Assembly (NCBI RefSeq): GCF_900156695.1
Contig: NZ_FTOM01000001.1
Span: 496,001 to 560,000, forward strand
DNA from: Phaeovulum vinaykumarii
Lineage (GTDB): Bacteria; Pseudomonadota; Alphaproteobacteria; Rhodobacterales; Rhodobacteraceae
Direction: 5' to 3'
Length of the DNA stretch: 64,000 nucleotides
Shown: positions 5,306 through 13,120 of the stretch, piece after piece
Numbering within the stretch: the first letter of the stretch is position 1
How the letters are laid out: the number at the start of each line of letters is the position of its first letter
Program-made: the position numbers and the translations under genes
Notes under the pieces: model-generated
Seen by the model: only the letters and a program-made list of their open reading frames with translations
What the model was told of the DNA's origin: nothing
Databases searched by the model: none

Positions 5306-5380
5306 GGCCCGTTCGTCTATCGGTTAGGACGCCAGGTTTTCAACCTGGAAAGAGGGGTTCGATTCCCCTACGGGCTGCCA
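5306..5380 (+). tRNA. tRNA-Glu (anticodon TTC), CCA encoded
   Basis: A 75-base cloverleaf is readable by eye. The acceptor arm is GGCCCGT pairing with ACGGGCT (first pair a G-T wobble), followed by discriminator G and an encoded CCA at 5378-5380. The anticodon stem is CCAGG/CCTGG with a 7-base loop TTTTCAA giving TTC, and the T arm is GGGG-TTCGATT-CCCC. Integrase remnants begin 89 bases downstream, so the 3' half is the probable integration target of the lost element. Confidence 0.96.
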
Positions 5381-5468
5381 TTTCCTCGATCTCCCTTTGT
5401 TCATTGATTTCCTGGGGACATCTCCTCATATCTCAGGACAAGACTAGGTACACCTGACGCGCGGGAAG

Positions 5469-6020
5469 GTGTCAAACTATCTCATCAAGCAAGACAACGC
5501 GTGGTCCGTGAAGGTCTCGATCCCCGCTGATGTGCAGCATATATTTGGCAAGCGGGCCTTCAAGAAGGCGCTCAAGACAACCGACAAGACCATCGCCATC
5601 GCCCGTAGCGGCCCGCTGATCGCGGAATTCAAAGCCGCCATCGAAGAAGCGCGGGGCAATCCGACGCAACACCTGGATGAGTTCCCCGCCAAGACGCGGG
5701 CACATATTCTGAAGGCCAAGAAGGATCCCGACACCGATCCCGAAGCCATTCTGTGCATGGAGGAGATCGTTCTGGATCGCCTGTTGGCGGCTCATCGGGT
5801 ACCACACCCGGAGCTTTTGCCCGAGAATGCAGAACCCGAGGTCGCCAAGGCGTACAAGGTCGCGACCGGGCGGCTCACCCCTTTCGATGAAGCGCTGGAA
5901 AACTATATCGAGAGCCGGAAAGTCGAACCGAAGACCGCCGACAAGGACCGGCATGCGATCAAGAAATTCGCCGCGAGGGTGCACGCCGTCGAGGACGTGA
6001 ACCGGCAGGCGGTCAAGGCC
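5469..6020 (+). pseudogene. tyrosine recombinase (integrase), N-terminal fragment
   Basis: The reading frame starts at GTG 5469 and opens with a DUF6538-like start of phage integrases (YLIKQDNAWSVKVSIPADVQ, then FGKRAFKKALKTTDK). Around residues 135-180 comes the beginning of the core-binding (SAM-like) domain (LTPFDEALENYIESRKVEPK). The catalytic domain with its R-H-R-Y residues is missing: homology stops near 6020, where sequence of an unrelated gene begins, and the frame closes at 6080 after an unrelated Arg/Ser-rich tail. It lies just downstream of tRNA-Glu, as expected for an integrase next to its attachment site. Not functional as a recombinase. Confidence 0.8.
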
Positions 6021-6487
6021 GCAACTTCGATCCCTCGAAGATCCTCGAAAGCCCGGCGGCGATGCGCGGCCTGCTGCTGACCTACACCGAAAAGGTAATC
6101 GCCCTGGAAGCCGAAGTCGATGACATGCGCGAGGATGTCGAGGCGCACGAACGGCTGACGAAGGCGGACGGATCGCTGTCGATCACCGAGACGGCGAAAA
6201 CGCTGTCGCTGCGCCCGAAAAACCTGTTTCAGTGGTTGTCGCAGAACGGCTGGATCTACAAGCGCCCGAACGGCGGCACGTGGCTGGGCTACCAGACGAA
6301 GTGCAATCAGGGCCTGCTGGAACACAAGACGACGACGGTGCTGCGCGCGGACGGATCGGAGAAGATCACCGAGCAAGTGCGTGTCACGCCGAAGGGGCTG
6401 TCGAAGCTGGCGAAGATCATTCATCCGACTGCCAGCCTCATCGCCTGGCCGAACCGCCGCCAGCCCCGTCCCTACGGCCCTTCTTGA
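6020..6487 (+). pseudogene. phage antirepressor KilAC domain, C-terminal fragment
   Basis: From codon 6020 a different frame reads RNFDPSKILESPAAMRGLLL and then a coiled segment (VIALEAEVDDMRED). The KilAC fold follows: ADGSLSITETAKTLSLRPKN, NGWIYKRPNG, LGYQTKCNQGLLEHKTTTVL and EQVRVTPKGLSKLAKII. The N-terminal Bro/antirepressor domain is missing. An internal ATG at 6062 could still start a polypeptide of 141 residues containing the whole KilAC domain, so expression is possible. It is joined directly and out of frame to the integrase fragment, which marks a deletion junction. Confidence 0.8.
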
Positions 6488-6570: not shown

Positions 6571-6768
6571 ATGCCGGCGAACCTCTATTCCAAGGGGCTC
6601 GATCTGGCCGATCCGGCAGCGGTCACGCCGATCGGGGCGGGATGCAAGGTGTGCCCGCGCGAGGGCTGTTCGCAGCGCGCCTTTCCGATGCTGGGGCGGC
6701 CTCTGACGGTCGCCCCAAGTCGCGCGCAGTTCGCTCCCTACGCGCAGGCCGCGGCGCAGAGATCGTGA
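6571..6768 (+). pseudogene. ScfR/DUF2083-type regulator, C-terminal fragment
   Basis: This frame encodes LYSKGLDLADPAAVTPIGAG followed by CKVCPREGCSQRAFP, GRPLTV and FAPY. That is the cysteine-rich C-terminal signature of the short-chain fatty acyl-CoA regulator family (XRE N-terminus plus DUF955/DUF2083 C-terminus). The helix-turn-helix and the middle of the protein are absent; an in-frame stop lies 30 bases upstream at 6541. The last 31 bases overlap the 3' end of nrdG on the other strand, so the junction of the scar with the nrd operon is very close to 6740-6770. A 65-residue peptide could be translated from ATG 6571 but would lack DNA binding. Confidence 0.7.
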
Positions 6769-7364
6769 TCGGCGCAGCCTTCCGCGCGGAAAGGTTGACG
6801 GCGCGAGGGCGTCAGGCCGAGCGCCGCCAGCTCTGCATCCATGCGCGCCAGGTCGACGGCGCCTAACAGCGCGGGGTGCACGGTGGTCCGCAGGTCGAAC
6901 GCCACACCGCTGTCGCGCAGCAGGATCAGGCTCTCGCGCGCCTTCGCCCCGCTGCCGCGGGCGCCGGTGATCCGGTCATAGGCATCGAAGGGCGCCTTGA
7001 CGTCGAACCCCACCCAGTCGAGCAGCGGCAAGGCCTGCGCCAGCCGGGCCGGGTAAGGCCCGCCGGTGTGCAGCCCGGTGCGGAACCCCATCGCCCGGAT
7101 GTTGCTGAGCGCCTCCGTCAGACCCTTTTGCAGCGTCGGCTCGCCGCCCGAGATCACGACCCCGTCCAGCAGGCCCCTGCGGCGGATTAGCAGCGCTGCC
7201 ACCTCATCCCAGGGTATCGTGCCCGGTCCGGCGGGGATCAGCGTGGTGTTGTGGCAGTACCGACAGGCCCAGGGGCAACCCTGACAGAACAGCACCGCCA
7301 CCAGTTCGCCGGGCCAGTCGACGCTGGAATGAGGCTCGAGCCCCGCGACCGCGATCTCAGCCAA
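6738..7364 (-). CDS. nrdG: anaerobic ribonucleotide reductase activating protein
   Basis: A radical-SAM activase that installs the glycyl radical on class III ribonucleotide reductase. 208 residues. The 4Fe-4S motif CPWACRYC (Cys-x3-Cys-x2-Cys) is near residues 29-37, followed by GGEPTLQ (SAM-binding GGE) and later FDVKAPFDAYDRITG. The start is TTG 7364, which lies inside the end of the preceding 66-codon gene (8-base overlap), suggesting translational coupling. It is the last gene of the nrd operon. Its 3' end overlaps the ScfR fragment on the opposite strand and no terminator is evident. Confidence 0.92.
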   Translation of the reverse strand: MAEIAVAGLEPHSSVDWPGELVAVLFCQGCPWACRYCHNTTLIPAGPGTIPWDEVAALLIRRRGLLDGVVISGGEPTLQKGLTEALSNIRAMGFRTGLHTGGPYPARLAQALPLLDWVGFDVKAPFDAYDRITGARGSGAKARESLILLRDSGVAFDLRTTVHPALLGAVDLARMDAELAALGLTPSRRQPFRAEGCADHDLCAAACA

Positions 7365-7557
7365 GTCGCGCCTCGGCCTCGTCGAAATAGACGCGTTCGG
7401 CCGCCTCGCCCTTCTTGCCGGTGTTGAAGGAGGCGACGGGGCGGTGATAGCCCATCACGCGGGTCCAGACCTCGCAGCGGGTGCGTTCCTCGTCGTTGAT
7501 CTCGATCTCGTCGGCCAGATCGGATTCCAGATCGGACATGGTCAGGGGCTTGTTCAT
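7357..7557 (-). CDS. detached glycyl-radical domain of NrdD
   Basis: A 66-residue protein with its own AGGAG site 8 bases before ATG 7557. After about 25 acidic residues it reads RTRCEVWTRVMGYHRPV then FNTGKKGEAAERVYF. This matches the end of Thermotoga/methanogen-type NrdD, where RV-x-GY-x-RP holds the glycine that carries the radical (here Gly36). The 670-residue NrdD just upstream ends before this element. The two ORFs are separated by a stop at 7571 and 13 bases. I infer that the working reductase is assembled from two chains, with NrdG activating the small one. A recent frameshift is unlikely because the small gene has its own start, ribosome site and N-terminal extension. Confidence 0.8.
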   Translation of the reverse strand: MNKPLTMSDLESDLADEIEINDEERTRCEVWTRVMGYHRPVASFNTGKKGEAAERVYFDEAEARLG

Positions 7558-7570
7558 CAGGGGGTCTCCT

Positions 7571-9583
7571 TCAGCTTGCTTTGAGTTGGGCGCGTTTCGC
7601 CGCCCGCAGTTCGGCGTCGCAGATCGGGCAGAACTCGTGCTCGCCCGCGATGTAGCCGTGTTTCGGGCAGATCGAGAATGTGGGCGTCACGGTGATGTAG
7701 GGCAGGCGGAAATTCTCCAGCGCCCGGCGGACCAGCTTCTTGCAGGCCTCGGCCGAAGATACGCGTTCGCCCATGTAAAGGTGCAGGACGGTGCCGCCGG
7801 TGTATTTCGCCTGAAGCGGCTCCTGGTGTTCCAGCGCGGCAAAGGGATCGGCGGTCCAGCCCACCGGCAACTGGGTGGAGTTGGTGTAATAGGGCTGATC
7901 CTCGGGCCCTGCCTGCAGGATGCCGGGGAAGCGCTTGCGGTCCTCACGTGCGAAGCGGTAGGTCGTGCCCTCGGCCGGTGTGGCCTCGAGATTGTACATG
8001 TGCCCGGTCTCTTCCTGATAGGCCACCATTCGGGCGCGCAGATGGTCCATGAATCGCAGGGCGAAGGTCTGGCCCCACTTTGTCGAGATATCCTCCGCAT
8101 CGCCGGTGAAATTGCGGATCATCTCGTTCACGCCGTTCACGCCGAGCGTCGAGAAATGGTTCCTGAGCGTGCCGAGATAGCGCTTGGTGTAGGGAAACAG
8201 GCCCAGGTCGATATGACGCTGGATCACCTTGCGCTTGATCTCCAGGCTCGTGCGCGCGATCCCGGCCAGCCGGTCCAGTGCGGCCAGCAGCGCCGCCTCG
8301 TCGCCCTTGTGCAGATGCCCCAGCCGGGCGCAGTTGATGGTGACGACACCCAAGCTGCCGGTCTGCTCGGCCGATCCGAACAGCCCGTTGCCGCGTTTCA
8401 GAAGCTCGGTCAGGTCGAGTTGCAGCCGGCAGCACATCGAGCGGACCATGTGCGGCTCCAGCTCGGAATTTACGAAGTTCTGGAAATAGGGCAGCCCGTA
8501 TTTCGCTGTCATCTCGAAGAGATACCCGGCGTTTTCGCTGTCCCAGGGGAAGTCGGAGGTGATGTTGTAGGTCGGGATCGGGAAGGTGAAGACCCGCCCC
8601 TTGGCGTCACCGGCAGTCATCACCTCCATATAGGCGCGGTTGATCATGTCCATTTCGGACTGCAACTCGCCATAGGTGAAATCAACCTCGCGCCCGGCGA
8701 CAATCGGCACTTGTTCGCGCAGATCCTCGGGACAGGTCCAGTCGAAGGTGAGGTTGGTAAAGGGCGTCTGCGTGCCCCAGCGCGAGGGCACGTTCAGGTT
8801 GTAGATGAATTCCTGCATCGCCTGCCGGACCTGATCGTAGGTCAGGCGATCGCGCCGGACGTAAGGCGCCAGATAGGTGTCAAAGGAACTGAACGCCTGC
8901 GCGCCGGCCCATTCGTTCTGCAAGGTGCCCAGGAAATTGACGATCTGGCCAAGGGCGCTGGACAGATGGGCGGGCGGGCCAGATTCGATGGTGCCGGGAA
9001 CGCCGTTCAGCCCCTCGCGCAGCAGCGTGCGCAAAGACCAGCCCGCGCAATAACCCGCGAACATGTCCAGATCGTGGATATGGATGTCGCCCTCGCGATG
9101 GGCCTGGCCGACCTCGGGCGGATAGATATGCGACAGCCAGTAATTCGCCGTAACCTTGCCGGAGGTGTTCAGGATCATCCCGCCCAGCGAATAGCCCTGG
9201 TTGGCGTTCGCGTTCACCCGCCAATCCGACCGGTCGAGATATTCGTTGATCGAGCGTTCCACATCGACCAGCGTGCGCCGGTCCTCGCGCAGGCGCGCGT
9301 GCTGTTCGCGGTAGACGGCATAGGCGCGCACCGTGGCGATGCAATTGGCCCCGATCAGCGCCTGTTCGACGGCATCCTGAATGTCCTCGATCCCGGGCGC
9401 GCCGCCCGCGTGGCGGTAGGACAGCACGCGCACCACCTGATCGGTCAGACGTTGCGCCTCGGCGGTGTCGAACTCGCCCGTGGACTCGGCCGCACGGGCG
9501 ATGGCGCGCGCGATCCGGCCGGCGTCGAAGGGAACCGTCTGCCCGTCGCGGGTGATCACGGATTTGGGGGAAAGCGCGGTCAT
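7571..9583 (-). CDS. nrdD: anaerobic (class III) ribonucleoside-triphosphate reductase, main subunit
   Basis: Reduces ribonucleoside triphosphates to deoxy forms without oxygen. An N-terminal ATP cone (about residues 1-95) is followed by the ten-stranded barrel domain with NANANQGYSLGGM, GDIHIHDLDM, NLNVPSRWGTQTPFTN, the finger-loop element RSMCCRLQLDL (probable thiyl cysteine) and GVNGVNEM. The protein ends with a metal-site half, CPKHGYIAGEHEFCPIC, then AKRAQLKAS. The usual C-terminal glycyl-radical segment is absent and is encoded by the next ORF. ATG 9583 is preferred because GGAGAC lies just before it; ATG 9598 is the alternative. It follows nrdF by under 20 bases. Confidence 0.93.
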   Translation of the reverse strand: MTALSPKSVITRDGQTVPFDAGRIARAIARAAESTGEFDTAEAQRLTDQVVRVLSYRHAGGAPGIEDIQDAVEQALIGANCIATVRAYAVYREQHARLREDRRTLVDVERSINEYLDRSDWRVNANANQGYSLGGMILNTSGKVTANYWLSHIYPPEVGQAHREGDIHIHDLDMFAGYCAGWSLRTLLREGLNGVPGTIESGPPAHLSSALGQIVNFLGTLQNEWAGAQAFSSFDTYLAPYVRRDRLTYDQVRQAMQEFIYNLNVPSRWGTQTPFTNLTFDWTCPEDLREQVPIVAGREVDFTYGELQSEMDMINRAYMEVMTAGDAKGRVFTFPIPTYNITSDFPWDSENAGYLFEMTAKYGLPYFQNFVNSELEPHMVRSMCCRLQLDLTELLKRGNGLFGSAEQTGSLGVVTINCARLGHLHKGDEAALLAALDRLAGIARTSLEIKRKVIQRHIDLGLFPYTKRYLGTLRNHFSTLGVNGVNEMIRNFTGDAEDISTKWGQTFALRFMDHLRARMVAYQEETGHMYNLEATPAEGTTYRFAREDRKRFPGILQAGPEDQPYYTNSTQLPVGWTADPFAALEHQEPLQAKYTGGTVLHLYMGERVSSAEACKKLVRRALENFRLPYITVTPTFSICPKHGYIAGEHEFCPICDAELRAAKRAQLKAS

Positions 9584-9600
9584 CTTGTCTCCAGACATGA

Positions 9601-12703
<3,103 letters not shown>

Positions 12704-12722
<19 letters not shown>

Positions 12723-13120
12723 TCCGTCCTCCAGAACTCTGCAAGCCCCGCGCGGACGCGGGCGATGTCGGCCTCGGTGCCGGCCAGTTCGAACCGGTAG
12801 AGCACCGGAACGGCGCATTTGCGGGCGATGACCTCGCCCGAGGCCGCGAAGAATGCGCCGAAATTGCGGTTGCCGCTGGCGATCACGCCCTTCAGGCGGC
12901 CGCGGGTGCCGGGATCGTTGAGAAACCGGATCACCTGTTTCGGCACGGCGCCCCGGCCCGTCCCATCGGCATAGGTCGGGCAGATCAGCACGAAGAGGCC
13001 GTCCGGGCGGGGCATCGCATACTCGGCGCGGATCGGAATGCGCGCCGCCGACAGGCCGAGGGCTGCGACGAAGCGCGCGGTATTGCCTGACGCGGAGGAA
13101 TAGAAGACGAGCCCGCCCAT
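12704..13120 (-). CDS. nrdI: NrdI flavodoxin-like RNR maturation protein
   Basis: A flavoprotein that supplies superoxide/peroxide oxidant for assembling the manganese cofactor of NrdF. 138 residues. The FMN phosphate loop is in [16 protein letters not shown] (residues 3-18), and the isoalloxazine-loop regions [16 protein letters not shown] and [16 protein letters not shown] are those of NrdI. It overlaps nrdE downstream by 19 bases and follows nrdH by 5 bases, the standard nrdHIEF order. Confidence 0.94.

Follow-up and report, generated by a model that had tools for sequence, protein, structure and literature searches.

In class III ribonucleotide reductases, the activase NrdG makes a glycyl radical that passes to a cysteine on the finger loop of the catalytic subunit, NrdD. 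The single-chain enzyme of Thermotoga maritima (NrdDh; structures 4coi and 4u3e) combines a barrel, an ATP-cone, a double-cysteine finger loop, a Zn site and a radical-glycine loop, and is served by an adjoining activase. We analysed a 64,000-nucleotide stretch of Phaeovulum vinaykumarii (contig NZ_FTOM01000001.1, positions 496,001 to 560,000; hereafter the window), which encodes a class III reductase with this same set of parts. Unlike T. maritima NrdDh, its radical-glycine loop comes from a separate gene, and its finger loop reads MCCR, as in the NrdDh4 group, rather than SCCR. We give a probability of about 0.85 to the reading that this locus specifies a two-subunit class III reductase; the weaker part of that reading is that its oxygen-labile radical subunit is exchangeable and that phages carry spares for it.

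The closest working analogue is found in pyruvate formate-lyase (PFL), which is served by YfiD/GrcA of E. coli and Y06I of phage T4. Like these, the window's small chain is a small stand-alone glycyl-radical domain that phages encode too; unlike them, it belongs to the NrdD family, has no PFL-type domain match, and is its host's only copy of the loop rather than a duplicate of one on the large chain. In its available part, a 2021 article names only YfiD and Y06I as validated spare parts, both for PFL, and regards others as possible (PMC8683613). NrdJa/NrdJb of Pseudomonas aeruginosa is likewise a reductase made as two polypeptides; unlike the window's enzyme, it is a B12-dependent class II reductase whose split separates no radical site. 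That pair is called a unique split reductase for a free-living organism in the accessible text of PMC4520616, a claim that the class III split contradicts. Within the open-access literature, with subscription papers mostly outside the search, we found no description of a class III reductase split at its radical domain, nor of a stand-alone NrdD radical domain in phages.

The Pfam family PF13597, a model of 562 positions, is shared out over two open reading frames (ORFs; Table 1), with positions 2-534 on the large chain (E 5e-177) and 532-562 on the small one (E 1.2e-7; 31.3 bits, the cut-off being 26.2). No radical-glycine loop (RVxGY) is present on the large chain; the separate small chain carries it. 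An earlier note, made from the letters alone, had described a catalytic chain without a radical motif followed by a 66-residue chain bearing RVMGYHRP, and both ORFs lie where it placed them. Its start and AGGAG site for the small ORF also stand, the AGGAG lying 8 bases 5′ of the ATG, and its reading of RVMGYHRP as the radical-glycine loop agrees with an alignment in which this column coincides with the glycine of fused relatives. Its description of the metal site as a half site does not hold: the large chain carries the full set of four predicted ligands (CPxH...CPxC), none of which varies in split or fused relatives. At the level of sequence, a separately encoded protein of about 50-100 residues thus carries the predicted loop that the catalytic chain is without.

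Table 1. Features of the class III reductase locus, in window coordinates.
Feature	Coordinates	Strand	Basis
Catalytic chain, class III ribonucleotide reductase (NrdD without glycyl-radical loop)	7571..9598	-	PF13597, PF03477, NF006126
MCCR finger-loop motif, catalytic chain; candidate thiyl-radical cysteine	8426..8437	-	sequence
Predicted four-ligand Zn site CPKH...CPIC, all on large chain	7619..7669	-	sequence; positions invariant in relatives' alignments
AGGAG, Shine-Dalgarno-like, for small ORF	7566..7570	-	sequence; abuts large stop codon
66-residue glycyl-radical domain protein, separate chain	7357..7557	-	PF13597 532-562, dN < dS, relatives
Predicted radical glycine codon, Gly36 of small ORF, motif RVMGYHRP	7450..7452	-	sequence; column aligned with fused relatives' glycine
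NrdG2-type radical S-adenosylmethionine (SAM) activase	6738..7364	-	TIGR02495 184.9 bits, cut-off 131.15

The small ORF behaves as a real gene. The rate of non-synonymous substitution (dN) was below that of synonymous substitution (dS) in 8/8 pairwise comparisons with relatives (46 codons; ratio about 0.17 to 0.46), which places the ORF beyond chance. It has no match to the PFL-type glycyl-radical family, PF13597 alone reaching E 0.001, and no sequence relative in the PDB at E 1; no second PF13597 match was found in the window's whole genome. The large chain has 675 residues from an upstream ATG at 9598, or 670 from the ATG at 9583 (7571-9583), and carries an N-terminal ATP-cone (PF03477, E 7e-21) ahead of the barrel; NCBIfam NF006126 matches it with 1122 bits (the Pfam search input began at 9595, one codon short). 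Its finger-loop cysteine is present in RSMCCRL. MCCR is the motif named for NrdDh4, a group marked by this motif together with Phe at the position of Ile359 in T. maritima, according to the available portion of PMC4493059; besides MCCR, the window chain has a Phe in LFGSAEQ that is a candidate Ile359 equivalent, from sequence alone.

The anatomy of the division was read from an alignment of 27 chains, comprising 15 split loci read through an in-frame TGA and 12 natural single chains. Here the large chain holds the invariant Zn ligands C646, H649, C659 and C662 (numbering of the split locus L003), positions that do not vary in either split or fused relatives (alignments A3 and A5), whereas R710, V711, G713, R716 and P717 sit on the small chain. 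Single chains have only a few residues between the last Zn cysteine and the radical loop; split large chains have an extra short charged tail, and small chains an extra variable start ending in ...ERxxCEVW. In the large chain of Cupriavidus necator H16 (L086, 1771-3801), the glycine of the Zn-site HGY is by computation residue 650. Siedow's work of 1999 reportedly named Gly-650 as the radical residue of the C. necator chain; that assignment would need another look, because the computed Gly650 neighbours the Zn-site histidine.

A scan with the small ORF, at one genome per species, returned at least 578 relatives, of which the best 80 were kept, classified with models built from these same loci and then recounted. 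The small gene is adjacent to a split large chain in 74 of these 80, one is fused (L016), one has the large chain only as a fragment, and no large chain was found on the fetched DNA of four (L012, L022, L072 and L074). The 80 span Alpha-, Beta- and Gammaproteobacteria, Omnitrophota and one Actinobacteria bin, and among the named loci with the split are Cupriavidus necator pHG1, C. metallidurans CH34, Bradyrhizobium, Paracoccus ferrooxidans, Cereibacter azotoformans and Sulfuricurvum kujiense. In CH34, the small ORF falls between the NrdDG genes, given as Rmet_5137 and Rmet_5139 in the accessible part of PMC2864759. A local frameshift, an assembly error or a decaying pseudogene of an ordinary single-chain NrdD, suggested by the mere 13 bases between the window's ORFs, has practically no probability given a split common to so many of the nearest loci, the occurrence of all three relative frames, and a small ORF with its own ribosome site under purifying selection.

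Across 117 locus rows with both parts (a few being overlapping fetches), the frame of the small ORF relative to the large was +1 in 47, +2 in 37 and 0 in 33. The shared frame in 33 rows, together with the one TAG between the ORFs in two genomes described below (G280 and G490), would favour a single chain that is still produced by stop-codon read-through, programmed frameshifting or protein splicing. We consider this very improbable, as 84 of the 117 rows are out of frame, gaps vary, the genes are distant in some genomes, and the small ORF comes with a start and a ribosome site of its own.

In the window's family, only its own genome has NrdD among 150 sampled, so NrdD is rare there. The class sample has NrdD in 42 of 387 genomes, 34 split and 8 fused, the split count including one genome (G465) where just the small part was found; the phylum sample has an NrdD match in 66 of 397, with 19 split and the others single chains except G776 (a weak partial match). 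With both samples joined, five genomes being common to them, 48/103 NrdD-positive genomes are split. The earlier note's guess that the split is lineage-wide is therefore upheld by this count and by the nearest loci, and its proposed check against a local frameshift came out the same way, single chains being a minority among the relatives and same-clade fused members nested inside split ones. Its question whether the small ORF always adjoins a truncated nrdD has a negative answer: the sole small gene is remote in five genomes, and the domain stands alone in phages and plasmids.

In one of those five genomes (G754), 9.5 kb of the same contig separates the small gene and nrdG from the large chain; in the other four (G377, G401, G526 and G236), the sole small gene is on a different contig from the large chain. 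Four further genomes (G208, G388, G514 and G224) have one adjacent and one remote split-type copy each. A prophage origin of these four extra copies was considered and dropped, since a lysin-type neighbour was seen at just one (L154) and a PHROG scan of ten neighbours added nothing. A seeming second split-type copy in G307 was likewise set aside, as that locus (L153) is of a different subtype and its contig bears a phage portal gene.

Several loci depart from the common form. L016, from an alphaproteobacterial bin, encodes one chain ending in two tandem glycyl-radical domains (1317-1664). Four loci of reduced alphaproteobacterial genomes (L103, L104, L116 and L181) have the loop variant SRSMGFIRP in place of TRVMGYHRP. 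On Thiothrix fructosivorans pTfr153 (L311, 2423-4209), the large chain is broken into two frames, and the small gene and nrdG are open.

A tree was built from the catalytic cores alone, without radical part or ATP-cone, and has 127 rows, of which 111 are split, 12 fused and 4 large-only. In it, the single chains of Acidiphilium (L308) and Actinomyces oris (L087) are nested in the split clade, and seven fused alphaproteobacterial chains cluster with split Sulfuricurvum; a mixture-model tree of 63 rows concurs (Acidiphilium node 96, Actinomyces pair 90). The split/fused history requires four changes, and the deepest branch is long. On these trees, the split arrangement appears ancestral to a large clade, and the Acidiphilium and Actinomyces single chains would be re-fusions, tying the large and small chains to one enzyme. 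A second, independent split appears to have occurred in the formate-type subclass (MGCR finger loop), where two genomes of one genus (G280 and G490, both among the 48 split genomes) have a 682-residue large chain ending in TAG, followed by a 60-residue ORF that has a start of its own and carries RRITGYL. The two ORFs there share a frame, with the one TAG between them; TAG ends 2/15 and 3/14 ORFs in the 20-kb stretches around them, the nrdD one included, and read-through is unlikely.

The same trees bear on whether the large chain is a working reductase at all. It might not be one as it stands, with the small protein acting as a regulator, an inhibitor or a transient radical shuttle, and sequence cannot tell a transient shuttle from a subunit. 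We regard this as improbable in view of the re-fusion to one chain in two lineages, the conserved catalytic residues of the large chain, and the split locus nrdDG of C. necator H16, cited as essential for complete denitrification in the available part of PMC2864759.

For a structural view, the natural in-frame read-through of L003, whose core is 91% identical to the window chain, was folded with AlphaFold2, giving a mean predicted local distance difference test score (pLDDT) of 84 and a predicted template-modelling score (pTM) of 0.78. The linker falls below pLDDT 50 at residues 679-683 and 686-691, and successive ten-residue blocks of the radical part from 691 average 79, 92, 80, 85 and 74, the block at 92 being residues 701-710 of the glycyl-radical part. 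Residues 102-740 align to Thermotoga NrdD 4u3e with Z 32.3 and a root-mean-square deviation of 2.8 over 535 residues, and class III structures aligned with the model right through the radical part. The small chain is thus predicted to be compatible with a place on the barrel; because the tether is present, the model speaks for compatibility rather than binding.

We then asked where else the radical domain stands alone. An IMG/VR scan with the small ORF returned 146 viral relatives, of which 80 were kept with up to 5 kb on each side (48 of these loci cover at least 2 kb on both sides). No catalytic chain was found at 79 of these 80 loci, the exception being L194. Of the 34 loci from a second scan, 33 were without a large chain, and five lay on contigs that the first had already covered. 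Whole records were searched for 30 viral contigs (15 to 177 kb, picked mainly for length) and the plasmids pALVIN01 and pAt1: none of the 30 viral records or the 2 plasmids yielded the catalytic part, all 32 yielded the radical part, and one (G896) has an additional weak PF13597 match at 503-529 (E 6.5e-4, below cut-off). NrdG2 was above cut-off in none of the 32, three of which give weaker radical-SAM matches. A scan of viral contigs with the large chain gave 7 distant matches, a weak negative, since the L194 large chain escaped it. Among 50,697 annotated phage records, neither a close relative of the small ORF nor a stand-alone domain of the split type turned up.

Around these domains, a set of 134 neighbour ORFs from 26 contigs matches terminase, portal, head, integrase, endolysin and replication families, and ten single neighbours gave 3 terminase large subunits, 3 replication/methylation proteins, 1 unknown family and 3 without a match. 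All ten small proteins tried, the window's among them, match phrog_4132, whose function is listed as unknown. The phenomenon extends to a second subtype: a 49-residue ORF on the phage contig L153, which has the portal gene, carries CGEKTEVYSRVTGYFRPV, the loop of other NrdD subtypes, and a scan for it gave 26 loci, 24 of which were searched as whole records, 20 with the radical part alone and 4 being large phages with a full NrdD. The archaeal virus ANMV-1 encodes a 144-residue protein that combines the loop with CxxC pairs of its own; its 38 kb hold no catalytic part, and the protein has no PDB sequence relative at E 0.01.

Further variants were seen among viruses and plasmids. In L194 (2389-4812), about 137 residues are inserted in the MCCR finger loop of a viral NrdD large chain, the insert ending in THN before C; its Intein_splicing match is weak and below cut-off. 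A phage single-chain NrdD of 810 residues (L340, MT835493.1) has a tail running into a TCPNC stretch, which from the motif we take to be glutaredoxin-like. On complete plasmids of Allochromatium vinosum (L312, 4986-5195) and A. tepidum (L313, 2460-2645), a lone radical domain is annotated nrdD, and the former adjoins a CHAP-domain gene. Eight viral radical-domain proteins (L206, L215, L218, L219, L234, L242, L250 and L261) have a Cys-rich N-terminal module, with no Pfam match for it in the three tried (L206, L218 and L242).

Loop conservation was compared over 229 distinct regions, 142 cellular and 87 viral with none in common. The search expression itself prescribes R-V-G-Y, so these residues do not count towards conservation, and five sequences without the pattern are left out (L103, L104, L116, L181 with SRSMGF, and L309). 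Residues outside the expression (RP after GY(H/F), then N, GK, E and R further on) are conserved at 99-100% in both sets. The signature xECWTRVMGYFRP is limited among cells to one family (f75, 5 distinct cores) and recurs in 9 viral cores, which suggests that viral copies are matched to their hosts.

The phage and plasmid domains might instead act as decoys or inhibitors, sequestering NrdG or blocking the catalytic chain of the host, or might be inert gene scraps, an idea prompted by their occurrence without a catalytic chain or an activase. We consider this unlikely, if still to be reckoned with: the residues flanking the loop are conserved as in cellular copies, phage DNA synthesis under anoxia benefits from more deoxyribonucleoside triphosphate (dNTP), not less, and T4 already has, in Y06I, a validated spare part for PFL, as the available text of PMC8683613 has it.

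Several points weigh against a two-subunit enzyme with phage-borne spares. The overall basis is sequence plus one predicted fold; that fold is of a chain tethered by reading a stop codon, and its AlphaFold2 alignment is thin, at 24 rows. In four of the five remote cases, the separation is read from draft-genome contigs. The viral claim draws on uncultured contigs, mostly fragments and without assigned hosts, at least 2.3 kb upstream is covered in just 61 of the 80 loci of the first scan, and the viral copies could be decoys, not spares.

In the window, the minus-strand order is nrdI, nrdE and nrdF (class Ib), the class III large chain, the 66-residue ORF and the activase. The class Ib genes (9601-13120) and class III genes (6738-9598) form one tight same-strand cluster, with 2 bases from the nrdF stop to the nrdD ATG, and none of the other bacterial loci fetched showed class Ib genes close by. 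The small ORF begins 13 bases beyond the large stop in a different frame, and the activase gene adjoins it, with an 8-base overlap if nrdG starts at TTG. Nearby, at 5306-6487, a tRNA-Glu is followed by a DUF6538 ORF (presumably an integrase-like start) and a KilAC antirepressor ORF, likely a phage remnant.

Collectively, a two-subunit enzyme would work as follows. The small protein would dock on the barrel where an ordinary NrdD has its C-terminal tail, so that the loop may act in trans in the cell; NrdG, encoded alongside, would install the radical on the small-chain glycine; and for catalysis the radical would move on to the large chain, to its finger-loop cysteine. Oxygen destroys the glycyl radical, so that a separate subunit might be an inexpensive part to exchange after damage. 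Phages and plasmids with the lone domain might, during infection or carriage, supply spare or replacement radical subunits to the host's catalytic chain. We lean slightly towards the broader proposal that the radical site of this essential enzyme is an exchangeable part, that bacteria retain a catalytic chain plus a disposable radical subunit, and that phages, archaeal viruses and plasmids carry host-matched subunits for at least two NrdD subtypes to maintain or take over dNTP supply under low oxygen.

Annotation pipelines label a 60-residue protein 'anaerobic ribonucleoside-triphosphate reductase', and phrog_4132 gains a likely function. Radical generation would here be taken apart from catalysis in an enzyme where the two were inseparable, and a separate radical subunit makes the spare-part idea for other glycyl radical enzymes directly testable. 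If the proposal is true, the viral domain of those subtypes whose hosts retain a full-length NrdD would be a genuine spare part, with no precedent among glycyl radical enzymes other than pyruvate formate-lyase.

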